This document shows positions 45,876 through 59,090 of a DNA stretch of 64,000 bases, piece by piece. Within the stretch, counting starts at the first letter, position 1. Every line of letters starts with the position of its first letter. The DNA lies in NCBI GenBank assembly GCA_963169745.1, contig CAUJCU010000021.1, forward strand, positions 62,001 to 126,000, read 5' to 3'. The notes beneath the pieces were generated by a model, which saw nothing but the letters and a program-made list of their open reading frames with translations, was not told where the DNA came from and did no database searches. Position numbers and translations under genes: made by a program. The stretch is from Bacteroidota bacterium. GTDB taxonomy: Bacteria; Bacteroidota; Bacteroidia; UBA4408.

Positions 45876-46223
45876 ATGGCTATCAAAATAACAGACGAAT
45901 GTATTAACTGTGGAGCCTGCGAGCCCGAATGTCCTAACAATGCTATTTATGAAGGAGGCAATGAATGGCGATTTGCTGACGGAACAAGCTTAAATGGGAT
46001 GATTACTACCTTGAAAGGACAGGCATTTGACGCAGACGAGCCTCAACAGCCTGTTGCAATGGATGTTTACTATATTGTTACAGACAAGTGTACGGAGTGT
46101 GTGGGTTTTCATGACGAGCCCCAATGTGCTGCCGTATGTCCGGTTGATTGTTGTATTGACGATGAGAACAATCGCGAAACAAAAGAGGAGCTGTTGGCAA
46201 AGAAAAACTTCATGCATTTTTAA
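45876..46223 (+). CDS. 2[4Fe-4S] ferredoxin
   Basis: The 115-residue protein has [17 protein letters not shown] (residues 10-26) for the first cluster and [22 protein letters not shown] (about 74-95) for the second, the latter with the long insert of Alvin-like ferredoxins. It carries electrons in the cytosol; no partner enzyme is adjacent. Its stop codon overlaps the ATG of the next gene (TAATG), a strong sign of co-translation. Confidence 0.95.
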
Positions 46224-47095
46224 TGTTCTTATTAAAGAATATTAAACAACTAGTTAAGAGAACCTTGTGTTCTCTTTTTCTTTTTTGGGGACTTTCATTG
46301 TCTGTTTCGGCACAAGTTTTAAATATAGAATATGTAAATAAAGTGCAAGATACACTAAAGCCTTTAGGGAAGATTATTTTAGATTTACGGAATCCCGAAA
46401 CCGAACGTCTGCTAGCGCATCAACAGTACTATAGTGTGTTAAAACGATTTTTACTTAAGCCCGGTGCTGAGGCATTTCAGCTTGACTCGGTTATAAATTT
46501 AGCTCAATTAACTCCCGAAGATAAAGCCTTTTACTTATACAATTGGGAGTTTGCACATAATGATGGTACTTTTTCTTATTATGCTTTTATTTTACAGAAA
46601 AACATAAAAAAATCTAGCTATAAATTAACCGAACTGAAAGATGCCTCCATAAGCATTAAAAGCCCCGAAAACACGGTATTAGGGCCAGATAAATGGTTTG
46701 GGGCTCACTACTATAAAATAATACAAGTAAAATATAAAAGAAAAATTTATTACTGTCTGTTAGGAGCTGATTGGAACGACCGAATAACCAAGAAGAAATT
46801 AATAGAAGTAATGTTTTTTGATAAAGATGGTAGTATAAAGTTTGGGGCTCCCATTATTACCTATAAAAAAACTACTTTAAACCGTTTAATTTTTGAATAC
46901 AGCAGTAAGGTTAGTATGACTTTAAATTACGATGAAAAGAGAAAGCTCGTAATATTTGATCACTTGTCACCAGCCGAAGAAGAATTAAAGGGTCAGTATC
47001 AATTTTATACTCCCGATTTGAGTTATGATGCTCTTAAATTTAGAAGAGGGAAATGGCACTATATTGAAAATATTGATGCTCGAAACAAGAAATAA
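46223..47095 (+). CDS. Exported protein of unknown function, 290 residues
   Basis: I do not recognise a family by name. It has a signal peptide (about residues 1-31; LFLFWGLSLSVSAQV) and a soluble domain with strand-like segments (GPDKWFGAHYYKIIQVKYKRKIYYCLLGADW, KKLIEVMFFDKDGSIKFGAPIITY) and C-terminal GKWHYIENIDARNKK. It is translationally coupled to the ferredoxin gene, odd for an exported protein. It is convergent with moxR. Confidence 0.8.
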   Translation: MFLLKNIKQLVKRTLCSLFLFWGLSLSVSAQVLNIEYVNKVQDTLKPLGKIILDLRNPETERLLAHQQYYSVLKRFLLKPGAEAFQLDSVINLAQLTPEDKAFYLYNWEFAHNDGTFSYYAFILQKNIKKSSYKLTELKDASISIKSPENTVLGPDKWFGAHYYKIIQVKYKRKIYYCLLGADWNDRITKKKLIEVMFFDKDGSIKFGAPIITYKKTTLNRLIFEYSSKVSMTLNYDEKRKLVIFDHLSPAEEELKGQYQFYTPDLSYDALKFRRGKWHYIENIDARNKK

Positions 47096-47138
47096 GCAAA
47101 AAAGTTGAAGATTTTATTATTTTCTCCAATAATTGTTC

Positions 47139-48095
47139 TTAAAGCAGCGATTCAATAATTTTTTCTATCGTAAATCCATCAGCCTCTGCCTTGTAATTAC
47201 GTACAATTCTATGACGTAATACAGATAATGCAACGGCTTTAACATCTTCAATATCGGGCGAGTATTTTCCTTGCAACAGAGCATGGCACTTGGCACCAAT
47301 AACCAAATTTTGAGAAGCTCTAGGACCAGCACCCCATGATAAATACTCTTTTACAGTATGAGGAGCTAAATCAGACTCTGGTCTTGTTTTAACACTTAAC
47401 TTAACAGCATATTCCAACACATTATCCGGAATAGGAATCTTTCTCACTAAATCTTGGTAAAATAATATATCCTCGGCATTTAAAATTTTATTTAGTACCG
47501 GTTTGTTGTCATGGGTAGTATTTTTTACAATAGCTAATTCTTCTTCAAGTGTTGGGTAGTTAAGCCAAACACTAAACATAAACCGGTCTAGTTGTGCTTC
47601 TGGAAGCGGATAAGTTCCTTCTTGTTCAATGGGGTTTTGTGTTGCTAATACAAAAAAGGGGTTTCCTAAAGAATATTTTTTACCGGCAACAGTAACCGAT
47701 TTTTCTTGCATAGCCTCGAGTAATGCTGACTGGGTTTTAGGAGGTGTACGGTTAATTTCATCGGCCAATACAATATTTACAAAAAGGGGACCTTTTATAA
47801 ACTTAAAATTACGCGAATCATCTAAAATTTCCGACCCAATAATATCAGAGGGCATTAAATCGGGTGTGAATTGAATACGGCTAAAAGCCAAACCAAGGGT
47901 ATCGGCAATGGTATTTACCAGTAATGTTTTAGCTAAACCGGGTACCCCAATAAGTAAGCAGTGGCCTCGGCTAAAAATAGAGATTAATACATCCTTAATA
48001 ATATCCTGCTGGCCTATTATTACTTTCTGAATCTCTGTATTTAGAGCTTGATATTTCTTTACAAATTCATCTACAGCTTCTACATCTGATTTCAT
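47139..48095 (-). CDS. MoxR family AAA+ ATPase
   Basis: The 318-residue protein shows Walker A GVPGLAKTLLV (about residues 54-64), Walker B VLADEINRTPPKTQSALLEAMQE (about 110-132), and the sensor segment LATQNPIEQEGTYPLPEAQLDRF, all signatures of MoxR. These ATPases act as chaperones or metal-insertion factors, often beside DUF58/VWA genes, which are not present here. It is 19 nt downstream of the SurA-like gene. Confidence 0.95.
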   Translation of the reverse strand: MKSDVEAVDEFVKKYQALNTEIQKVIIGQQDIIKDVLISIFSRGHCLLIGVPGLAKTLLVNTIADTLGLAFSRIQFTPDLMPSDIIGSEILDDSRNFKFIKGPLFVNIVLADEINRTPPKTQSALLEAMQEKSVTVAGKKYSLGNPFFVLATQNPIEQEGTYPLPEAQLDRFMFSVWLNYPTLEEELAIVKNTTHDNKPVLNKILNAEDILFYQDLVRKIPIPDNVLEYAVKLSVKTRPESDLAPHTVKEYLSWGAGPRASQNLVIGAKCHALLQGKYSPDIEDVKAVALSVLRHRIVRNYKAEADGFTIEKIIESLL

Positions 48096-48114
48096 AAATA
48101 TAATGCTATCTTAG

Positions 48115-49485
48115 TTATTTATTATCTGCTTTGTCCATAGCGTTGCTAAACCACGGATACTTAAAATTACAAGGTTTATAACTATCATCCACTCTAATAT
48201 AGGTAAGAGCCATTTTCTTTTTTACCCAGTTTGCCATAACCTTTTGTTGCTTTACTATTAAGGCAATGTTTTGAAGTTTCTGATAATCTTCTTTTAAGTT
48301 TGCTTTATGTGGCTCGGTTCTTTCTTTCAAGTACAATATTCTATAGGCTTGTTTGCCCTCGCTGGTTGTGTATTTAACTGGAGCTGAAATTTCTCCTACT
48401 TTTAATTTATCAATAGTAAAAAATAAAGCAGCATCCATTTCACTTGTCTCAAAGCGTGTTGTTCCACTGCTTTGATTTATTAACCTACCCCCATTAAACT
48501 TAGTTTCATTGTCGTCTGAAAACTTTTGTGCTGCCTGACTAAAATCCAGTTTTTCTTTTTCAATTACAAGTTTTACCGAATCAAGATATTGTTGTGCTTG
48601 TAATAAGTCGCTGCTAAGAACTTTAGGCACTAACAAAATATGCCTTAAATTGGCTTGCTCTCCTCTTCTTTCAATCATTTGAATAATATGAAATCCATAT
48701 TGCGACTCAATAACAGGTGATACCTCTTTCCCTTGAAGAGAAAAACCGGCAGCAGCAAATTCGGGAACCAACTCATTTCGTGATTTAAAGCCCAGCTCAC
48801 CACCGTAGGCCGATGATCCATCTTCTGAATACATTACAGCTAAGGTTGCAAAATCTTCTCCGGCTACAATACGATCTCGTAGCTTTTGTAAGCGTTCTCG
48901 TGTAGCCAAACGCACCTCTTGGTTAATAGGAGGCCTTTTGGTTATTTGACAAATTTCAACTTCACTATTGACTATGGGTAAACTGTCTTTGGGTAGTAAA
49001 TTGTAATAGGAACGCACGTCAGCAGGTGTTACTTTTACATCTTGAGTAATCTTATTCTGCATCGTTTTGGCCAAGAGTATTTTTTTTAAATCATCTCTGT
49101 ATTCTGCCTTTAGCTCAGCAATACTTTTTCCCATAAACTCTTCGAGTTTTTTTTCAGAACCTGCTTGGGCAATATAATACCGCATTCGTTGGTCTAATTC
49201 TCCCGTAACTTGGGCATCACTTACGGTAATACTATCTATTTCTGCTTGATGAGTCAATAACTTTTGAAACAATAATTCTTCAAGAATTGTACATTTACTA
49301 ATGGGTAATGAATCATGTCCTTGTGCTCTTACCTGTTCCATTTCATTATCAATATCAGATTGTAAAATAAGATTATTACCTACAACTGCTACTACTTGGT
49401 CAATAACTTTTCCTTTGGGCTGTGACTTAGCATAGTCCGAAAATAGTATAAATAAAAGTATTATGAATACTCCTGGCTTTGTCAT
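48115..49485 (-). CDS. SurA-like periplasmic peptidyl-prolyl isomerase
   Basis: The 456-residue protein has a signal peptide (about residues 1-21), an N-terminal chaperone part (VVAVVGNNLILQSDIDNEMEQV), and two parvulin domains: SEDGSSAYGGELGFKSRNELVPEF...QYGFHIIQMIERRG, and NLRHILLVPKV with FSDDNETKFNGGRLIN. It helps fold outer-membrane proteins. Length and layout are like SurA; the second domain is less complete. It is transcribed with moxR. Confidence 0.92.
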   Translation of the reverse strand: MTKPGVFIILLFILFSDYAKSQPKGKVIDQVVAVVGNNLILQSDIDNEMEQVRAQGHDSLPISKCTILEELLFQKLLTHQAEIDSITVSDAQVTGELDQRMRYYIAQAGSEKKLEEFMGKSIAELKAEYRDDLKKILLAKTMQNKITQDVKVTPADVRSYYNLLPKDSLPIVNSEVEICQITKRPPINQEVRLATRERLQKLRDRIVAGEDFATLAVMYSEDGSSAYGGELGFKSRNELVPEFAAAGFSLQGKEVSPVIESQYGFHIIQMIERRGEQANLRHILLVPKVLSSDLLQAQQYLDSVKLVIEKEKLDFSQAAQKFSDDNETKFNGGRLINQSSGTTRFETSEMDAALFFTIDKLKVGEISAPVKYTTSEGKQAYRILYLKERTEPHKANLKEDYQKLQNIALIVKQQKVMANWVKKKMALTYIRVDDSYKPCNFKYPWFSNAMDKADNK

Positions 49486-49641
49486 TTTGTATTTAAAGGA
49501 GCGTAAAGATACGTTTAGCCTTTAATAATAAACCAAATAAAGTGTAAAATATTAATAAAAATAGCATCTACGCTATTTGTTCTAAAACAACGGGGTTATT
49601 TTTTGTAATAAACCTCTTGTAGGGTCTATAAAGTAGTTTCT

Positions 49642-50793
49642 TTAATCATGAAAATACTCTTTCATACGGTCAAAAAAGCTTTTTTCTTTTCCCGAAGGCT
49701 TGGGTTTAAAGTTTTCCGAATCGTTTAGCTTTTCTAAAATTTTTGTTTCTTCTTTACTAAGCTTTTGTGGAATCCATACATTAATATTGACCAGCAAATC
49801 ACCCTTTTCATAAGAGTTAACAGAAGGCAATCCTTTCCCTCTCAAACGAAGTACCTTTCCGGGCTGGGTACCGGGCTCAATTTTTATTTTGGCCTTCGCA
49901 TCAATTGTTGGCACTTCAATATGTGTTCCCAAGGCAGCATCAGTTACTGATATATAGTGGTCTAAGAACAGATTTATGCCATCTCTTTTCAATATTGGAT
50001 GTTCTATTTCTTCAATCAATATGAGCAAATCTCCGGGTACACCTCCTCTGCCGGCTGCATTGCCTTTTCCGCTCATAGACAATTGCATGCCTTGTGCTAC
50101 TCCGGCAGGGATATTAATAGAAATTATTTCTTCAGCCCGAACAACACCATCACCAAAGCAAATTTTACACTTATCTTTTATGGTTTGCCCTTGTCCTCCA
50201 CAAGTAGGGCAAGTAGTACTAGTTTGCATTTGTCCCAAAATGGTATTCATAATTTGGGTTACCTGACCTGTTCCGTGGCAGGTATTACAGTTTGTATAAG
50301 CAGTGCCTCCAAATGCCCCAGTACCGGAACAAGTACCGCAACCGATATACTTATTTACTTTAATCTTTTTTTCTACACCGTTGGCTATTTCTTCTAACGT
50401 TAGTTTTACTTTTACTCTCAAATTACTCCCCCGGTTCGTTCTGCGTCCACCACCATGCCGGCCACTACTAAATCCACCAAAACTTCCACCACCAAAAATA
50501 TCACCAAACTGACTGAAAATATCTTCCATATTCATGCCGCCAAAACCCGAACCACCTCCCGGTTCTGAACCTGTGGCTGAGTGCCCAAAACGATCGTATT
50601 GGGCTTTTTTTTGAGGGTTACTGAGAACATCATAGGCCTCTGCTGCTTCCTTAAATTTTTCTTCTGCAGTTTTGTCACCCGGGTTTTTATCCGGATGGTA
50701 CTTCATAGCCATCTTTCGATAAGCTTTTTTTATCTCGCTTTCATCGGCCCCTTTGGCTAGTCCAAGTATATCGTAGTAATCTCTTTTACTCAT
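49642..50793 (-). CDS. dnaJ: Chaperone protein DnaJ
   Basis: The 383-residue co-chaperone has the J domain with HPD ([11 protein letters not shown], about residues 30-40), a Gly/Phe-rich linker, four CxxCxGxG-type zinc motifs ([32 protein letters not shown]) and the C-terminal substrate-binding domain. It stimulates DnaK. It is 43 nt downstream of grpE; dnaK is not in the window. Confidence 0.97.
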
Positions 50794-50836
50794 TAGTAGT
50801 TATATTCTATTTCAAAGTTTAAAACAATAGGATTCA

Positions 50837-51424
50837 TTAAAGCCCCACAACAACTTTAGCATATCGAATCACTTTCTCATTCAGCAAATATCCTTTTTCT
50901 AAAACATCCACAACTTTTCCTTTCAAATCGTCTTGTGGAGCCGGAATACTTGTAACAGCTTCATGTAAGTCATCGTTAAAATGCTGCCCTTCACAAACAA
51001 TAGGCTGTAATCCTCTTGCTGTTAAAATATTTATAAACTTATTAAAAATAAGTTCAACACCTTCTTTCAATGAAGAAATATCATTTTGATTTTCATTCAT
51101 GGCTTTTAAACCTCTTTCAAAGTCATCAATAACGGGTAACACCGCTTTAAAAAAGTCTTCTCCCGCTGTTTTTACAAGTTCTACACGTTCTCTGGCTGTC
51201 CTTTTTCGGTAATTATCAAAGTCACTAAATAAACGTAAATACTTATCATTCATTTCGGCTAGCTGTTCTTCCAATTGGGTAATTTGAGTAGCTCCCGATT
51301 CCGGAAGTTTTGTTTCATTATCCCCAGTCTCACTTGGCTCTCCACCAATATTTTGTGCATTTTGTTGGGTTTCCTCGATGGGGCTTGATGCTTCCTTGCT
51401 AGTGTCTTTAATTGATTCTTCCAT
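50837..51424 (-). CDS. grpE: Nucleotide exchange factor GrpE
   Basis: The 195-residue protein has a long acidic N-terminal tail (residues 1-50), a coiled-coil (QLEEQLAEMNDKYLRLFSDFDNYRKRTARERVELV) and a C-terminal beta domain ending GYLLNEKVIRYAKVVVGL, as in GrpE. It releases ADP from DnaK. It forms an operon with dnaJ. A candidate -7 box TAATTTTG lies at 51460-51467 (minus); no HrcA/CIRCE repeat is visible upstream. Confidence 0.95.
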   Translation of the reverse strand: MEESIKDTSKEASSPIEETQQNAQNIGGEPSETGDNETKLPESGATQITQLEEQLAEMNDKYLRLFSDFDNYRKRTARERVELVKTAGEDFFKAVLPVIDDFERGLKAMNENQNDISSLKEGVELIFNKFINILTARGLQPIVCEGQHFNDDLHEAVTSIPAPQDDLKGKVVDVLEKGYLLNEKVIRYAKVVVGL

Positions 51425-51459
51425 AATTATAAAGCTTAGATACTAAGACCCCTTCAATA

Positions 51460-51467
51460 CAAAATTA
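51460..51467 (-). promoter_or_regulatory. Candidate -7 box of grpE-dnaJ
   Basis: TAATTTTG on the minus strand fits TAnnTTTG, 36 nt upstream of the grpE ATG. No clear -33 TTG at ideal distance, and no CIRCE element. Confidence 0.35.
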
Positions 51468-51589
51468 CTGCCATGAACTTTTTTTAGACATTTTGGCAGT
51501 TTTTAGGCAACTGTAAGCTATATTGTCTTACGAAAGGCAAGAAAATAATACGCATAGAAAAATAATAAAAAAATTAAATGCAAGAACCT

Positions 51590-51603
51590 ATGACTTAAGT
51601 CAT
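51590..51603. promoter_or_regulatory. Perfect palindrome upstream of the MbnP-like gene
   Basis: ATGACTTAAGTCAT is a perfect 14-bp palindrome, centred about 54 bp before ATG 51651. TGAC-N4-GTCA resembles Crp/Fnr-superfamily half-sites with a 4-bp spacer (TTGAC/GTCAA-like), so a Crp/Fnr or similar dimeric regulator is a reasonable guess. The motif sits between grpE and the mbnP-like gene and could act on either. Confidence 0.45.
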
Positions 51604-51650
51604 TTTTATTGACAGCTAAAATTAATTACTTTGAGAAAAATTAATTGTTT

Positions 51651-52379
51651 ATGAAAACAAATAAAATAGTGTTATTAGGAGCTATTGTATTCATATTGCT
51701 GGGTACTTTATCGTGCAAAAAAGAAAAGGACACTCAAGTCAACACATTTGATGTAAAAATGTGTCTTGCTTATCAAGTTGATAATAGCCCCTTGGAGTAT
51801 AACACAGTCAAATACACCAATGCTGCCGGGAATAACTATAGTGTTTCAAAGCTTCAGTTTTATCTTTCCAGCTTTGTTTTTGAAAATAATGAGGGCAAGA
51901 CTTTCACTTTTGACAGTGTGTATTATGTTGATGCAACAGCACCTGCTCAATTATATCTTTTTAAAGGATTGCCCGAAGGCTCTTACAAGTCAATAAAATT
52001 TAATATTGGACTTGATGCAGCAAAAAACAAAAGTAACACACTTGAGAATACGGTAAATAATCAAAATATGGCATGGCCAGAAATGATGGGAGGAGGTTAC
52101 CACTTCTTAAAATTAGAGGGAAATTATAAAAGCGGGAACGAGTTCTTTGGATTTAATATGCATCTGGGAAAAAATAACAATTTAGTACCCATATCGCTAA
52201 ACCAAGAATTTAAAGTGGCTGTAAATGCGCCCATCTTGCAATTAAATATGAATATTAATAAATGGTTTGAAGGAGCATATACCTATGACCTTAACACGGA
52301 TGCTAGTTATACGATGACTGATAGTTTAGCTATGAACAAGCTGGCTCAAAATGGTAAAAATGTATTTTCAATTAAATAA
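51651..52379 (+). CDS. MbnP-like copper-associated lipoprotein
   Basis: From ATG 51651 the 242-residue product has a lipoprotein signal with Cys22 (LGTLSC). It has YSVSKLQFYLSSFVF, PEGSYKSIKFNIGLD and the family motif MAWPEMMGGGYHFLKLEG, with Trp142 at the position I take to be the one oxidised in MbnP. MbnP binds copper in the periplasm of methanotrophs and relatives and is modified by the partner MbnH. The next gene, 2 nt away, encodes an MbnH-like peroxidase. The ORF can be extended to TTG 51645, but ATG 51651 is preferred. Confidence 0.82.
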   Translation: MKTNKIVLLGAIVFILLGTLSCKKEKDTQVNTFDVKMCLAYQVDNSPLEYNTVKYTNAAGNNYSVSKLQFYLSSFVFENNEGKTFTFDSVYYVDATAPAQLYLFKGLPEGSYKSIKFNIGLDAAKNKSNTLENTVNNQNMAWPEMMGGGYHFLKLEGNYKSGNEFFGFNMHLGKNNNLVPISLNQEFKVAVNAPILQLNMNINKWFEGAYTYDLNTDASYTMTDSLAMNKLAQNGKNVFSIK

Positions 52380-52381
52380 TC

Positions 52382-53407
52382 ATGAAGTTATCGTTTAAAT
52401 ATTTCATTATTCTAGTATCTTTAGTTATTGCAGTGGCTGCATGCAAAAAAAAGACTCAGGATAATATCACAACAGAGCTTCCCCCATTCAACCCTACACC
52501 TTATGTAATTGAAACACCTTCCAATTTACCAAAAATGGAAGTCCCGTCTTATAACCCAACTACAGTTGAAGGTGTTTACTTGGGACGTAAGCTTTACTAT
52601 GAAAAACTAATGCATCCACAAGGTACTTCTTCCTGTTCTTCTTGCCATATTCAAAACGAGGGATTTACTACACGTGGTACCAATATCATATCACATGTTA
52701 ATTTAGGATATCATAGCAAATTTTTATGGAATGGTGAAATTCGGGGGTCTCTTGAAAGTGCTATGATGTTTGAGGTAGAAGAATTTTTTAAAACTGATTT
52801 TACCAAATTACAAACACACAGTTTATACCCATTACTTTTTTATAAGGCTTTTGGAACTACTAAAATTGATGCTCAGAAATGTGCTTTTGCTTTAGCTCAG
52901 TTTTTAAGAACGATGAACTCAGGAAATTCAAAGTTTGATCGCTTTGTTCGACATGAAACAATGTTAAGCCCCGAAGAAACAGAAGGGTTTAGTATTTTCT
53001 TTACAGAAAAAGGAGATTGCTTTCATTGCCACAGTATGTCGTTAACTACTGACGGAGATATACATAATATTGGTTTGGACTCGGTATTTAACGGGGTTAA
53101 TGCCGGTTATTACAATGTGAGCCACAGTGCTGCTGATTATGGTAAATTCAGAACGCCTACATTACGTAATATCGGCTTAAAAAACACTTTTATGCATGAC
53201 AGTAGGTTTCAGTCTCTTGAGGAAGTTATAGAACATTATAATTCAGGAGTAAAACACTCCCCTTCCTTAGATCCTATTATGACTAAGCCAAGTAAGCAAT
53301 TTGGGCTAAATTTAACCCAACAAGATAAACAAAACTTAAAAGCATTTTTACTTACCCTAACAGATTCTACCTTTTTAAATAATTCCAACTTGTCTGATCC
53401 TAATTAA
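52382..53407 (+). CDS. Di-haem cytochrome c peroxidase, MbnH/MauG type
   Basis: The 341-residue lipoprotein (Cys21 in AVAAC) carries two c-type haem motifs, CSSCH (residues 85-89) and CFHCH (residues 213-217), in the layout of bacterial cytochrome c peroxidases and MauG/MbnH. The pairing with the MbnP-like gene makes MbnH-type tryptophan oxidation the more likely role; plain peroxide reduction is the alternative. The downstream gene is convergent. Confidence 0.85.
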   Translation: MKLSFKYFIILVSLVIAVAACKKKTQDNITTELPPFNPTPYVIETPSNLPKMEVPSYNPTTVEGVYLGRKLYYEKLMHPQGTSSCSSCHIQNEGFTTRGTNIISHVNLGYHSKFLWNGEIRGSLESAMMFEVEEFFKTDFTKLQTHSLYPLLFYKAFGTTKIDAQKCAFALAQFLRTMNSGNSKFDRFVRHETMLSPEETEGFSIFFTEKGDCFHCHSMSLTTDGDIHNIGLDSVFNGVNAGYYNVSHSAADYGKFRTPTLRNIGLKNTFMHDSRFQSLEEVIEHYNSGVKHSPSLDPIMTKPSKQFGLNLTQQDKQNLKAFLLTLTDSTFLNNSNLSDPN

Positions 53408-53414
53408 ATCAATG

Positions 53415-54110
53415 CTACTTTATTTCTTTGTCATCTTCAAACTGAAACTTGAAACCTAATCTCTTCCCTGTTTGAATACTAATCATATTGGTTGCATTGT
53501 TTATTTCTGATACCGTTATTTCGCGCTGTGTTTCAAACGGAGGGGTGTATAAGTCAAATTCTATAGATGATAATATAATTAGCTGAAGTAGGTTTAAGGC
53601 TTTCTCGGTAATTAATTTTTCACTTCCAAAATCATCGTGTCCTAAAGTTATTTTCCGATTTTTGCTCTCAACAAAATAATGCGATTCTTTATTCACAAAC
53701 ACACGGGCCATTAAGTATCCTACATCATTTAAGCGATAATATTTAAAACTGTCAGCCAAAAAATTATATACACTTACCAGGCCGCAATAAGAAAGTGTAG
53801 TATCTTTGCTTATGTAAGGTGACTTTCGAATATAATGACTATCATCAAAATCAAAAATATTGGTATGCATTTGAAAAACCAATGAATCGCCTCCTATTTT
53901 TATTTCAAACATAAACTCACTGCGGTCGTTGTATTCAACAATAACCCGTTTGTCTATTGCAAAAACATCATGCTTTAAGCTTTCTATTTGATATTTAGCT
54001 AAATCTTTCAACATTCTGAAAGCATTTGCCGTTTCAACAAAAACATCTTGCTTAATGCTCGATTTTTCTTTGATTATTGAAACAATATTTTGATGCAGAT
54101 TTGTGTACAT
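53415..54110 (-). CDS. Protein of unknown function behind proS, 231 residues
   Basis: From ATG 54110 the product is 231 residues with no signal peptide or transmembrane helix. It has an all-polar composition, with segments VIVEYNDRSEFMFEIKIGGDSLVFQMHTNIFDF and SYCGLVSVYNFLADSFKYYRLNDVGYLMARVFVNKESHYF, suggesting mixed alpha/beta. I do not recognise the family. It lies 11 nt after proS and is probably co-transcribed. The longer frame to 54215 runs inside proS and is rejected. Confidence 0.8.
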   Translation of the reverse strand: MYTNLHQNIVSIIKEKSSIKQDVFVETANAFRMLKDLAKYQIESLKHDVFAIDKRVIVEYNDRSEFMFEIKIGGDSLVFQMHTNIFDFDDSHYIRKSPYISKDTTLSYCGLVSVYNFLADSFKYYRLNDVGYLMARVFVNKESHYFVESKNRKITLGHDDFGSEKLITEKALNLLQLIILSSIEFDLYTPPFETQREITVSEINNATNMISIQTGKRLGFKFQFEDDKEIK

Positions 54111-54121
54111 AACTTTATTAC

Positions 54122-55597
54122 TTAATATGCTTTGGCAAAAAGTACGCGTTGCGTTGAAGGTCTTCCAGAATAAATGCAGTTTCCTTTTTCCTGTATGCTG
54201 TTTAATGGAATACAACGAATAGTTGCCTTGGTTTCTTGTTTTATAAGCTCTTCTGTTTCAGATGTTCCGTCCCAATGCGCTGCAATAAAGCCCCCTTTGT
54301 TTTCTAATATTTCTTTAAATTGCTCGTAACTGTCCACTCGATGTATCATGCTATCTCTAAAATTTAAAGCTTTTTGATATAAATTATGTTGAATTTCGTT
54401 TAGTAAACTTACAACAATTTGAGAAAGCCCTTGCTGACTAATGGTTTGCTTCTCTTTTGTATCTCTACGGGCAAGCTCTACTGTGCCGTTCTCTATATCA
54501 CGAGATCCAAGAGCAATTCGAAGGGGCACTCCTTTAAATTCGTAATCAGCAAATTTCCAACCGGGTCTTTGGTTGTCACGATTGTCATATTTTACCCGAA
54601 TATCTAAATTTTCAAGTTCTTTTTTTAACTGAGCCGCATAAGCATTTATTTTTTGCAATTGTTCTTCATCCTTAAAAATTGGTACTATTACAACTTGTAT
54701 AGGAGCAAGTTTTGGAGGCAAAACTAAGCCCTGATTATCAGAGTGTGACATAATTAGGGCTCCCATTAATCGGGTAGATACCCCCCACGAAGTAGCCCAA
54801 ACATAATCCTGTGTTCCCTCTTTAGTCGTAAACTTCACATCAAAAGCCTTAGCAAAATTTTGGCCTAAAAAATGAGAAGTGCCTGCTTGAAGTGCTTTGC
54901 CATCTTGCATTAATGCTTCTATGCAATAGGTATCTAAGGCTCCGGCAAAACGCTCGTTAGCGGTTTTTTTCCCTTTAATCACAGGAACTGCCATATAATT
55001 CTCCACAAAGTCGGCATATACGTCAAGCATTTTTTCAGTCTCTTCAACAGCTTCTTCGGCAGTTGCATGAGCGGTATGCCCCTCTTGCCATAAGAATTCG
55101 GCTGTTCGTAAAAATAAACGGGTACGCATTTCCCATCGAACAACATTGGCCCATTGGTTAATAAGCAAGGGCAGGTCACGATAAGATTGAATCCAGCCTT
55201 TGTAGGTATTCCAGATGATCGTTTCTGAAGTAGGTCTAACAATAAGCTCTTCTTCCAGTTTAGCTTCTTCATCAACCACAATTCCTTTCCCATCAGGAGC
55301 GTTTTTTAAACGATAATGTGTAACTACTGCACACTCTTTTGCAAAGCCATCAACGTGCGAAGCTTCTTTACTAAAAAATGATTTAGGGATAAAAAGAGGA
55401 AAATAAGCATTTACGTGGCCGGTTTGTTTAAACTTTTTATCTAAGGCTTGTTGCATCATTTCCCATATTGCATAGCCATGTGGCTTTATTACCATACAGC
55501 CACGAACAGCACTGTTTTCAGCCAAATCAGCCTTTATAACCAAATCGTTGTACCACTGTGCATAATTATCTTCTTTTGTAGTGAAATCTTTCGCCAT
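54122..55597 (-). CDS. proS: Prolyl-tRNA synthetase, short (type 3, archaeal/eukaryotic-like)
   Basis: The 491-residue enzyme charges tRNA-Pro. Seen: [93 protein letters not shown], and the C-terminal half ending in [17 protein letters not shown]. Absence of the editing insertion between motifs 2 and 3 puts it in the short type 3 class. Promoter -7 candidate TACTTTTG at 55652-55659 (minus). Confidence 0.96.
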
Positions 55598-55710
55598 TGT
55601 TTTTTTGGTATAGTATTTGTATTTTTGATTAGTGATTCTAATTTACGGGGTCAAAAGTAAAATTAAACTTTTATAGAAAAGAATTGTCGAACCAAATAAA
55701 ATATAAAGAC

Positions 55711-57576
55711 ATGAAAACATTTCTCTCGATTATGCTTGTTGGAAGTATTGCACTGGCGGGTTGCAATACAACAAAACAAACCGCTCGAAATAATGACGAT
55801 GATGTGTATTTTACCCGAAACAACAATACATCATCAAATAACATGAACACGAACTCAGGTAGTGGAACCACAAGTGGGCAAAATAGCGATTACACCCCTT
55901 CTGGTACGAATAGCACAACCTCAGGCGGTAATTATGACCAAGCCTCAAACCAATCAACTACACAAAGTACAAACGGAAACAGCTATACAACTAATAATTA
56001 TTATGATACATCATTTAATTATGATGACTATTATGATTATGCTTATTCAGCCCGGTTAAGAAGGTTTTACTCTAATAGTGCTTATAACAGCTATTATTCT
56101 CCCTATTATACAAACACTTACTTCTATAATTATAATCCGTATAACTACGGTACGAGTATTTATTTAGGATATAATTGGTGGGGGCCAGGATATACAACTA
56201 CAGTTATATACTCTCCTGTTTGGGCTAGCAGCTGGAATAGTTATTATGGTTGGGGATGGGGGTATAATCGCCCATGTTGGGGATGGAATTATTCTCCAGT
56301 ATATTATTATGGTTGGGGGTATCCTTCTTATGGAAGCTATTATGGTTGGGGGAATGCTTGGTCTTACGGAGGCTATCCATACTACGGATGGGGTGGTTAT
56401 AATCATGGCTACTACCACGGCTATAATCACGGCTACAATCAAGGCTATTACAATGGATATTATGCCGGATTAAATAACGGGTATTATTATAATGGTTATG
56501 ATGCCAACACATACTACTACGGCCCGCGAACAACTGCAAGCACCAGTGGAGTAGGTGGAAGAAGCAGCTTTAGTTCACAATCTTTTTCTCAAATTTACGA
56601 GGCAGCAACGGGAGTTGATCATGGAAGAGGCATAGATAGAATTGTAAACACTAAAGAATCAAACTCAAGTATCACAACTGTAAAACCGGCTACAAATATC
56701 AATAGTATTGGAAATACACGACCTGTTGAAAGCAGTACAACAAAACCCACTTTTGATAATCGTAATTTAGGGGGCTCAAAAGATAATGCAATTGGAACCA
56801 CTAACGGAGTACCGGTTAATACTAACAGCGCAAAACCTACTGGTGGTAATTTCGACACACGCATTAATAATAACACGAACTATGCGAAGCCTACCGGAGG
56901 TAATTACGATACACGTCCAATAGATAACAGTAGTGTTAAACCTACTGGAAATAATAACTACTCACATCCTATTGACAATAGTACTGTAAAACCTGCCGGA
57001 GGTAATTACGATACACGCCCAATAGATAACAGTAGTGTTAAACCTGCTACAAACACGTATGAGAGTCGCCCGGTAAACACCAATAATGCACAACCTATTA
57101 GAGGCAATTACGACACGCGCCCGGTTGAGTATAACAGCAACGAGCCTTCGAATAACTATGAGTACTTTAACAATAACTCTAGACCATCTAATAAAGCAAA
57201 TTATGAAAGTAGCCCGGTAGCCCCAAGTACACCATCTTATAACAACAATACCCGGCCTTCAAATAACAACTATGAACCATCACATAACAATAGGAACAAC
57301 AACAACTTCAATACACCATCTCAGCCTTCATATCAGTCACAACCATCAACACCTAGATACAATCAGCCATCGACTCCATCAAGAGGAAATAGCGGCTCAG
57401 GTAGTCCAAGATCAGAAGCAGCTCCATCAAGAAGCCACTCAGGCAATAGTTACTCTACACCTGCAATGAGTAGCCCGAGCAGAAGTTCAGGAAGCTCTTT
57501 TGGAGGCAGTAGAAGTTCAGGTAGTTCTAATTTTGGTGGAGGTGGTGCAACCCGCTCATCAGGAGGGAGAAGATAA
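55711..57576 (+). CDS. Low-complexity Tyr/Gly/Asn/Ser-rich lipoprotein
   Basis: From ATG 55711 the 621-residue product has a clear lipobox (LAGC, Cys18). Residues about 85-270 are dominated by Tyr, Gly, Trp and Asn (YNHGYYHGYNHGYNQGYYNG-like), residues about 370-480 repeat a unit of about 17 residues with GGNYDTRPIDNSSVKP, and the C-terminus is Ser/Gly/Pro-rich. No enzyme domain is seen. A surface-exposed sticky or matrix-like role is inferred only from composition. The longer frame (TTG 55684) lacks a signal peptide. It is followed 47 nt later by a FadL-like barrel. Confidence 0.85.
   Translation: MKTFLSIMLVGSIALAGCNTTKQTARNNDDDVYFTRNNNTSSNNMNTNSGSGTTSGQNSDYTPSGTNSTTSGGNYDQASNQSTTQSTNGNSYTTNNYYDTSFNYDDYYDYAYSARLRRFYSNSAYNSYYSPYYTNTYFYNYNPYNYGTSIYLGYNWWGPGYTTTVIYSPVWASSWNSYYGWGWGYNRPCWGWNYSPVYYYGWGYPSYGSYYGWGNAWSYGGYPYYGWGGYNHGYYHGYNHGYNQGYYNGYYAGLNNGYYYNGYDANTYYYGPRTTASTSGVGGRSSFSSQSFSQIYEAATGVDHGRGIDRIVNTKESNSSITTVKPATNINSIGNTRPVESSTTKPTFDNRNLGGSKDNAIGTTNGVPVNTNSAKPTGGNFDTRINNNTNYAKPTGGNYDTRPIDNSSVKPTGNNNYSHPIDNSTVKPAGGNYDTRPIDNSSVKPATNTYESRPVNTNNAQPIRGNYDTRPVEYNSNEPSNNYEYFNNNSRPSNKANYESSPVAPSTPSYNNNTRPSNNNYEPSHNNRNNNNFNTPSQPSYQSQPSTPRYNQPSTPSRGNSGSGSPRSEAAPSRSHSGNSYSTPAMSSPSRSSGSSFGGSRSSGSSNFGGGGATRSSGGRR
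56894..57045 (+). repeat. Near-identical 50-bp direct repeats in the lipoprotein gene
   Basis: Two 50-bp blocks, at about 56894-56943 and 56996-57045, encode GGNYDTRPIDNSSVKP and differ at one base. They are spaced 102 bp apart, i.e. two 17-codon units. This suggests recent intragenic duplication and possible length variation. Confidence 0.7.
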
Positions 57577-57623
57577 TATAACCTAGAGTGAGTTCTATAT
57601 TCTATAAACTAAATCTGATTAAC

Positions 57624-59090
57624 ATGAAACCATGGATTTATATAAGTGGAACTTTCCTTACGCTTATAATGGCATTCCCCTTGAAAAGTTTGGGCCAAAA
57701 TGAGGATGATGCTTTAAGATATGCCCAAACTCATATTTCTGGAACAGCTCGGAGTGCGGCTATGGGTGGTGCGTTTGGTGCTTTGGGTTCAGACTTTTCT
57801 TCACTAAGTATTAACCCTGCAGGATTAGGGCTTTATCGCAGATCTGAATTTTCATTTAGCCCGGCTATTACAGGAAATTCTATAGAAAGTAACTACTTGG
57901 GAGGTAAATACAAAGACGACAAATATCAATTTCATGTGTCTAACTTAGGTATGGTAATGGCTGGGGAACGAGATGCTAAAGGTGATAAATGGAAAGGGCT
58001 TGGGTTTGGATTTGGGTACAATCGCTTGGCAAACTTCAGCAACCGATACATCATTCAGGGAAATAATGCCTCCAGTAGCCTTACCGATGTGTATTTGGCA
58101 GAGGCTAAATCGCTTGATCCGAGTAGTTTCCCAACCTTTGGAACAGATATGGCTTGGAACACGTATTTAATTGATACTTTAAAAGGGGAGTATTTTAGTG
58201 CGATGCCTGCCAATATCAGTAAAATTCAACGCAAATCCATTGAAAAAAGTGGAGGAATTGGCGAAACGGTATTGTCTTTTGCAGGAAATTATAATAATCA
58301 GCTCTTTATAGGGGCAACTGTTGGTTTTCAAAAAATTAGATATTGGGAAGAGAGCAACTACAGCGAAGCCCCTACTACCGATACTTTTGCTATTAAAGGT
58401 TTTACAGTTAATAATTACCTGAATACGGATGGCAATGGTGTTAATATTAAATTTGGGCTTATTTATATGCCTATTCCTTTTGTACGAATTGGTGCTGCTT
58501 TTCATTCACCAACTTACTTTAACTTACACGATAATTTCAGTTCCGGAATGACTACTTCTTTTAATAATGGAGGGGGTACTTTCAATGCCGGAAGCAACAG
58601 CAATGGAGGAGATGATAAAGGAAGTTTTGATTATAGCTATTACAGTCCAATGCGTACGGTGGGCTCGTTGGCTTTTATTTTTGGCCAAACCGGACTGCTA
58701 AGTGTTGATTATGAATTAATGGATTACCGTGATGCGCGTTTTCGTGCCAGTGGCTATAGTTTTATGGAACAGAATAATAGTATTCGTGATAAATACCGAG
58801 CTACTGGAAATTTACGCGTAGGTACTGAAATAAGATTTAATCCGTTTAGCTTACGGTTAGGCTATGCCTTATACGGAAGCCCTTTTAAGGATCAATCATT
58901 AATGAGTTCTAAACAGCATATAAGTGGAGGTATTGGATATAGGCACGATGGTCTTTTCATTGATTTGGCTTACGTAAGAACTATGTTCCAGGAAAAATAT
59001 TATTTGTATAACAGTTATTTTAATCCCAACCCTTCTATAAATCAAATAACCAGCGGAAGTATTATGCTTACGATTGGAACTAAATTTTAA
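57624..59090 (+). CDS. OmpP1/FadL-like outer-membrane protein
   Basis: From ATG 57624 the 488-residue product has a signal peptide and the FadL/OmpP1-like start: DALRYAQTHISGTARSAAMGGAFGALGSDFSSLSINPAGLGLYRRSEFS. Aromatic-terminated strands continue to GSIMLTIGTKF, a barrel-closing end. FadL relatives transport hydrophobic compounds; the substrate here is unknown. It lies between the low-complexity lipoprotein and the repeat protein, probably one transcript. Confidence 0.85.
   Translation: MKPWIYISGTFLTLIMAFPLKSLGQNEDDALRYAQTHISGTARSAAMGGAFGALGSDFSSLSINPAGLGLYRRSEFSFSPAITGNSIESNYLGGKYKDDKYQFHVSNLGMVMAGERDAKGDKWKGLGFGFGYNRLANFSNRYIIQGNNASSSLTDVYLAEAKSLDPSSFPTFGTDMAWNTYLIDTLKGEYFSAMPANISKIQRKSIEKSGGIGETVLSFAGNYNNQLFIGATVGFQKIRYWEESNYSEAPTTDTFAIKGFTVNNYLNTDGNGVNIKFGLIYMPIPFVRIGAAFHSPTYFNLHDNFSSGMTTSFNNGGGTFNAGSNSNGGDDKGSFDYSYYSPMRTVGSLAFIFGQTGLLSVDYELMDYRDARFRASGYSFMEQNNSIRDKYRATGNLRVGTEIRFNPFSLRLGYALYGSPFKDQSLMSSKQHISGGIGYRHDGLFIDLAYVRTMFQEKYYLYNSYFNPNPSINQITSGSIMLTIGTKF

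Follow-up and report, generated by a model that had tools for sequence, protein, structure and literature searches.

A pair of adjacent lipoprotein genes, mbnP-like and mbnH-like, lies at 51651-53407 of the Bacteroidota DNA analysed here (hereafter the window, meaning the whole stretch of 64,000 nucleotides). We read this locus, with moderate confidence, as a copper-handling lipoprotein pair belonging to an anaerobic N-oxide respiration regulon, its copper role being putative. At the level of sequence the pair is evident, as are its strict linkage, its standing as a subfamily of its own, the Fnr-type box in front of it, and its co-occurrence and co-location with norB and nosZ. What is new is this subfamily and its context, since stand-alone MbnP/MbnH pairs outside methanobactin producers were already reported in 2013 (PMC3621798) and the MbnP domain PF20243 is present in 72/100 relatives. 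A sequence-only reading of the same DNA had suggested a stand-alone copper or redox module in a non-methanotroph; the pair is real, but it is not new in itself, and it represents a distinct subfamily within a nitrogen-oxide/anaerobic respiration regulon, not a generic redox module.

The mbnP-like gene (51651..52379, forward strand) encodes 242 amino acids with a lipobox Cys at residue 22 and belongs to the WP/GGGYHF subfamily. Only 2 nt separate its stop codon from the start of the mbnH-like gene (52382..53407, forward strand), which encodes a 341 amino acid di-haem lipoprotein with its lipobox at Cys21. Both products had been recognized in the sequence-only reading, one as an MbnP-like lipoprotein with a Trp at position 142 and the other as an MbnH/MauG-like enzyme with CSSCH and CFHCH motifs, and both descriptions are confirmed. 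Against profile libraries the agreement is partial. Pfam MbnP (PF20243) scores 111.7 bits, well past its gathering cut-off of 27, and Pfam CCP_MauG scores 91.1 bits for the enzyme (cut-off 25.6), but the best NCBIfam matches, TIGR04052 (the MbnP_like_WxW equivalog, 34.5 bits, cut-off 140) and TIGR04039 (MbnH, 187.3 bits, cut-off 362.85), both fall below threshold. Modelling places both proteins closest to the expected structures. The AlphaFold2 model of the window MbnP (pLDDT 95.1) has MbnP 7l6g from M. trichosporium as its only significant PDB fold match (E 1.1e-6), the chains of that entry alone having E below 0.001; this match came from the fold search only, a profile search of PDB based on the aligned MbnP proteins having returned no true match. 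For the enzyme (model pLDDT 94), MbnH 6e1c is the best PDB match both by sequence and by fold. MbnP sought in plasmid and viral collections gave no match. As had been claimed, no methanobactin gene (mbnA, mbnB or mbnC) is recognizable nearby among ORFs of at least 70 aa in positions 46000-59000, a size limit that would miss the short mbnA precursor, but not mbnB or mbnC.

To delimit the subfamily, the window MbnP was searched against 395 Bacteroidia genomes, with a close relative taken as one scoring at least 110 bits, a threshold of our own choosing; by this measure 68/395 genomes are carriers. Members share the signature MxWPxxMGGGYHF, and an MbnH-like gene is adjacent in all 40 of the 40 subfamily loci fetched, with an adjacent MbnH partner in 77/79 further loci. 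Botryobacter ruber is among the species that have a member (L219). Residue conservation is given for an unbiased alignment of 41 subfamily members and five WxW paralogues, the W and H figures from 80 named loci being biased by search patterns that contained the motif. The codons for M140-A141-W142 occupy 52068..52076 on the forward strand, that of W142 being 52074-52076, within MAWPEMMGGGYHF. Trp142, the predicted kynurenine position, is kept in 40/41 members and corresponds in the alignment to the first Trp of WxW, as it also does against MbnP from Methylocystis and Paracoccus; the conservation of this residue, on which the sequence-only reading depended, thus holds. Met140 is likewise present in 40/41 and Pro143 in 41/41. 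WxW itself is not intact in the window protein, where the first Trp is kept and the second replaced. Across the subfamily the loss of the second Trp goes with the gain of an invariant His151 (codon 52101..52103, forward strand), found in 41/41 members vs 0/5 WxW proteins, and the position is Ile in WxW paralogues of the same genus. A second His, H171 of the xHLG motif (codon 52161..52163, forward strand), is common to 41/41 subfamily members and 5/5 WxW paralogues, aligns with HLGS in methanotroph MbnP, and is a predicted copper ligand.

The window's genome also holds a second, canonical WxW MbnP/MbnH pair on contig C9 (L004/L108). This pair represents both families, in the gene order seen in the window; unlike the window pair, it has an intact WxW and an intact Gln/Glu haem pocket, lacks an Fnr-type box, and has a TonB-receptor-like gene upstream (judged by eye).

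In the MbnH-like enzyme both CxxCH motifs, CSSCH (residues 85-89; 52634..52648) and CFHCH (residues 213-217; 53018..53032), and Tyr286 (codon 53237..53239), all on the forward strand, are invariant in 41/41 partners. The second motif is part of a subfamily signature, E-x-G-D-CFHCH, in which E209, F214 and H215 occur in 41/41 and where methanotroph MbnH reads EKAECHHCH. Tyr286 falls at the position of the axial Tyr in MbnH and MauG, where cytochrome c peroxidase has Met (3o5c, and L006, an ordinary cytochrome c peroxidase with an axial Met on contig C17 of the same genome), and is the putative second axial haem ligand in place of Met. In a maximum-likelihood tree the window enzyme falls among 37 partners that form one clade with support of 100/99; the WxW partners (100/100), proteobacterial and cyanobacterial MbnH, and CcP all lie outside it. 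These results weigh on a reading that would make MbnH, in the manner of Ccp from E. coli, an Fnr-controlled respiratory cytochrome c peroxidase with MbnP as its accessory subunit. E. coli Ccp is under Fnr-type control, and both the fold and the CCP_MauG domain of the window enzyme would suit such a role. Ordinary bacterial CcP is, however, marked by a Met axial ligand and by CcP grouping, neither of which applies here: Tyr replaces Met in 41/41, the tree sets the enzyme apart, and a separate Met-type peroxidase is already encoded in the genome. The enzyme is, moreover, always paired with MbnP in the 40 fetched loci, and it is missing the Gln/Glu pair that peroxidases use. A respiratory peroxidase is thus very unlikely, and the grouping with ordinary Ccp that could have undone the sequence-only reading is not seen.

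The missing Gln/Glu pair belongs to the distal pocket of the N-terminal haem, in the LExQ...NPxEMG segment, and is present in every reference MbnH, MauG and CcP compared. It is missing in 37/37 core partners, which carry [FY]EV..FF or DF..FF instead and in 33/37 cases His105. In alignments of the window enzyme, residues 130-136, FEVEEFF (52769..52789, forward strand), replace the NPxEMG loop that bears the pocket Glu of MauG, CcP and MbnH, and the upstream pocket Gln is likewise missing. Peroxide-driven Trp oxidation therefore cannot be assumed for the core partners. Because the peroxide pocket is rebuilt, and because in MbnP the second Trp is gone and a His has been added, this MbnH could instead make a different modification, such as a His-Trp or Tyr crosslink or a hydroxylation, or could use another oxidant. 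Such an activity would be in keeping with the substitutions just described, with an H151 that is invariant only in the subfamily, and with expression predicted when oxygen is scarce. Nevertheless, W142, H171 and the axial Tyr are kept as in canonical pairs, and E131 or a neighbouring acid could stand in for the pocket Glu, and we consider a different chemistry unlikely. Four outer members (L103, L105, L106 and L107) combine the new MbnP motif, degraded in L107, with an MbnH that has the canonical Gln/Glu pocket. They form no single resolved group in the maximum-likelihood tree; they are possible evolutionary intermediates, and their sequences would fit a pocket change later than the change in MbnP.

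Upstream of mbnP, the sequence-only reading had singled out a palindrome, ATGACTTAAGTCAT (TGAC-N4-GTCA; 51590..51603, 47 bp before the mbnP ATG), as a Crp/Fnr-like site. Within a single genome the palindrome is not beyond chance. The form TGACTTAAGTCA occurs three times in the window's genome, the other two within coding genes, and WTGACN4GTCAW occurs 8 times vs 11 for a reversed control, which is no enrichment. For this reason conservation across species was used instead, and there the palindrome is far beyond chance. Exact TGAC-N4-GTCA precedes mbnP in 6/46 upstreams, all six being subfamily members, vs 0.14 expected in shuffles, and at one mismatch or fewer it precedes 18 of the 46, vs 2.9; within two mismatches it is absent from 5/5 upstreams of WxW paralogues. 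Of a further 60 independent loci drawn from GTDB genomes, 41 have TGAY-N4-RTCA no more than 150 bp from mbnP, vs 0.5 in mononucleotide shuffles; the boxes are mostly at -45 to -80, about 60 bp upstream of the gene. The palindrome persists in relatives, then, and is by its sequence a conserved Crp/Fnr-type (Fnr/Dnr-type) box and putative regulator site, much as had been supposed. Between box and gene lies TTACTTTG (51626..51633, forward strand), which from its sequence is a possible -7 element; TAnnTTTG-like -7 elements are a feature of Bacteroidota promoters. A start site near 51638 would set the centre of the box near -41.5, a position usual for class II activation by Fnr. Scans for sigma-70 promoters and for terminators yielded no signal beyond chance.

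In the same loci an Fnr-type box also precedes norB-like, nosZ-operon cytochrome, RIC, nrdJ, narK, MoaA-region and Crp/Fnr genes. NosZ is identified at 950 bits (cut-off 625) and RIC at 217 bits (cut-off 204.7). The names norB and norC are our own assignments, as the profile libraries go no further than haem-copper oxidase subunit I for the one and cytochrome c for the other; we read them as an NO reductase from the pairing of the two genes and from the company they keep. In two congeners, G001 and G002, the nosZ operon is preceded by a pair of boxes. The window's genome, in which the regulon was sampled by pattern searches and regions, has no nosZ; it encodes a copper nitrite reductase, NirK (contig C22, 341 bits), with a TGAT-N4-GTCA box 132 bp upstream, a box-preceded tnaA-tnaA-norC-norB locus on C11, and, on C10, a Crp/Fnr gene followed by a hemerythrin-like gene that is itself preceded by two boxes.

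Several of these neighbourhoods hold genes worth recording in their own right. Directly after nirK come a lipoprotein with an FGE/SUMF1 domain and a SCO1 protein (L165:9901-10728, on G000:C22). The two tnaA-like genes on C11 are beta-eliminating lyases of the tyrosine phenol-lyase/tryptophanase family, placed with norC-norB behind the Fnr-type box (L262:5452-10012, G000:C11), and one or two such lyase genes also adjoin norC/norB at L073, L092, L094 and L096. Directly behind norCB, a second box is followed by a small membrane protein, a YtkA-domain lipoprotein and an OprC/NosA-like TonB receptor (L262:10052-13451, G000:C11); this cassette recurs at L095:13291-16666, about 4 kb from mbnPH. The best NCBIfam match of the C11 receptor is TIGR01778 (TonB-copper), at 115 bits and below its cut-off, and the receptor contains a CxxxM stretch, CTDKM, resembling the motif described for OprC (PMC8610252). 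The cassette is a candidate copper import system. A protein of about 600 aa with no NCBIfam match (FHIPVMGxxYTIDTPIKVAxFGISSVxSI; L261:15671-17555, G000:C2) recurs near L069, L086, L089 and L091, and its gene has an Fnr-type box at L086 as well as in the window's genome. A short protein, DPLxRNxEK...MDPPxAY, with an Fnr-type box of its own, lies between mbnH and moaA in narK-containing loci (L088:6677-7351, L091:10494-11207, L093:11219-11944 and L097:6461-7174).

The link to N-oxide genes extends across the class. Among the 395 Bacteroidia, NosZ occurs in 54/68 subfamily carriers vs 74/327 non-carriers (odds ratio 13, P 1e-18); many of these genomes are incomplete MAGs and the co-occurrence tests are corrected for phylogeny at the family level only, where the counts are 25/28 vs 17/49 (odds ratio 16, P 3e-6). 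NorB occurs in 42/68 carriers vs 34/327 non-carriers (odds ratio 14). Where a genome's MbnP proteins all fall outside the subfamily, the NosZ trend is reversed (odds ratio 0.3), and the idea that all MbnP proteins track NosZ was accordingly rejected. NirK was rejected as the main partner, its association across the class being weak (odds ratio 2.2, P 0.07). In some genomes the genes are also close together: norB lies within 2.7 kb of mbnP in 10/42 genomes having both, and nosZ within 25 kb in 9/54 vs 0.8 expected. The pattern can be followed within the genus of the window's genome, where G000 and G002 have both the subfamily and NorB, and G001 (NosZ only) and G003 (neither) have neither NorB nor the subfamily. 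There remain 12/68 carriers with none of NosZ, NirK and NorB, five of which (four in family f12, and G080) appear to be divergent outer members.

These distributions bear on whether the pair supplies copper at all. It may serve anaerobic protection, with MbnP buffering Cu(I), a toxic ion whose availability rises when oxygen is lacking, or with the pair guarding the envelope from NO or peroxide, with no supply of copper to enzymes. An association with NorB as strong as that with NosZ would agree with such a stress role, as would the Fnr-type box with its RIC and Rrf2 regulator neighbours and the carriers that have neither NosZ nor NirK. The NosZ association nevertheless persists after stratification by NorB, with an odds ratio of 9.6 among NorB-positive and 5.5 among NorB-negative genomes, and copper efflux or resistance genes are not recurrent neighbours in 40 loci. 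We hold protection to be rather unlikely. The association could also reflect N-oxide or anaerobic life in general rather than copper, which is conceivable because the window's genome has no NosZ and because NorB is not a copper enzyme.

Comparison with known systems helps to place the pair. Methanotroph MbnP/MbnH (7l6g and 6e1c; TIGR04052 and TIGR04039) has the same gene order, mbnP-mbnH, and like folds in both proteins, and shares the first Trp of WxW, the HLG His, the two CxxCH motifs and the axial Tyr. The window locus differs in having no methanobactin genes, in that both its proteins are predicted lipoproteins, in the loss of the second WxW Trp and the extra His, in an MbnH without the LExQ...NPxEMG pocket, and in an Fnr-type box and a link to nor/nos genes. 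On plasmids NZ_CP092970.1, NZ_CP047243.1 and NZ_CP067130.1, mbnH-like genes that adjoin mbnP and encode two CxxCH motifs carry the annotation methanobactin export MATE transporter MbnM; in NZ_CP092970.1 mbnM is labelled hypothetical, and the mbnH and mbnM names are apparently swapped. The methanotroph surface copper proteins CorA/CorB and MopE/SACCP likewise combine a Cu(I) protein with a MauG-like cytochrome, as proposed here. CorA/MopE, in contrast to the window pair with its predicted Fnr-type control, is copper-repressed in methanotrophs, and a sequence search of solved structures, CorA/MopE among them, gave no hit to the window MbnP at E up to 1. In CorA the Cu(I) ligands are Kyn and two His (PMC3912023), and a set made of H151, H171 and an oxidized W142 would resemble the CorA/MopE site. 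In denitrifying pseudomonads, OprC/NosA serves anaerobic copper acquisition, OprC being anaerobically induced and NosA tied to NosZ in some strains (PMC8610252); as a TonB receptor and not an MbnP it is a possible partner here rather than a homologue. A later report cited there found that a nosA knockout in another strain left NosZ activity and copper unchanged, which leaves a flow of copper from receptor to NosZ itself in doubt. A literature search on MbnH with nosZ found no prior report, and among the titles and abstracts returned for MauG, nitrous oxide reductase and Bacteroidetes none concerned the pair.

Taken as a copper-handling module, the locus might work as follows. At low oxygen and in the presence of N-oxides, an activator of the Crp/Fnr family would bind the box and turn on mbnP-mbnH together with nor, nos or nir genes, and the two products, as lipoproteins, would go to the cell envelope. 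W142 of MbnP would be oxidized by the MauG-like MbnH, probably to kynurenine; the first Trp of methanotroph MbnP reportedly becomes kynurenine and lies at a Cu(I) site. The oxidized W142 would complete a Cu(I) site with H171, H151 and perhaps M140. With this site MbnP could capture copper, whether at the cell surface or in the periplasm, and supply or buffer it for denitrifying copper enzymes, which in most carriers means NosZ and in the window's genome NirK. An OprC/NosA-like receptor of the same regulon is a possible entry route. Kynurenine formation, copper binding and the direction of copper flow are what we infer from the sequences. More tentatively, and with some doubt, we suggest that a new, Fnr-controlled MbnP/MbnH branch gives kynurenine-type copper sites to NosZ/NirK respiration in Bacteroidota through a MauG-like enzyme whose rebuilt haem pocket functions at low oxygen and dispenses with the residues that ordinarily activate peroxide. 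If true, a protein oxidation normally tied to peroxide would be performed under low oxygen by such a pocket.

The rebuilt pocket thus poses a chemical question, namely how MauG-like Trp oxidation could proceed when oxygen and peroxide should be scarce. For the role of MbnP/MbnH outside methanotrophs, the subfamily offers a specific and testable context, namely the respiration of NO and N2O. Those Bacteroidota that carry clade II NosZ are important consumers of N2O, and to our knowledge the loading of copper into their NosZ is poorly known; a dedicated, co-regulated copper module in these bacteria would therefore be relevant to greenhouse-gas turnover, and the pair described here may be such a supply module for greenhouse-gas-consuming respiration.
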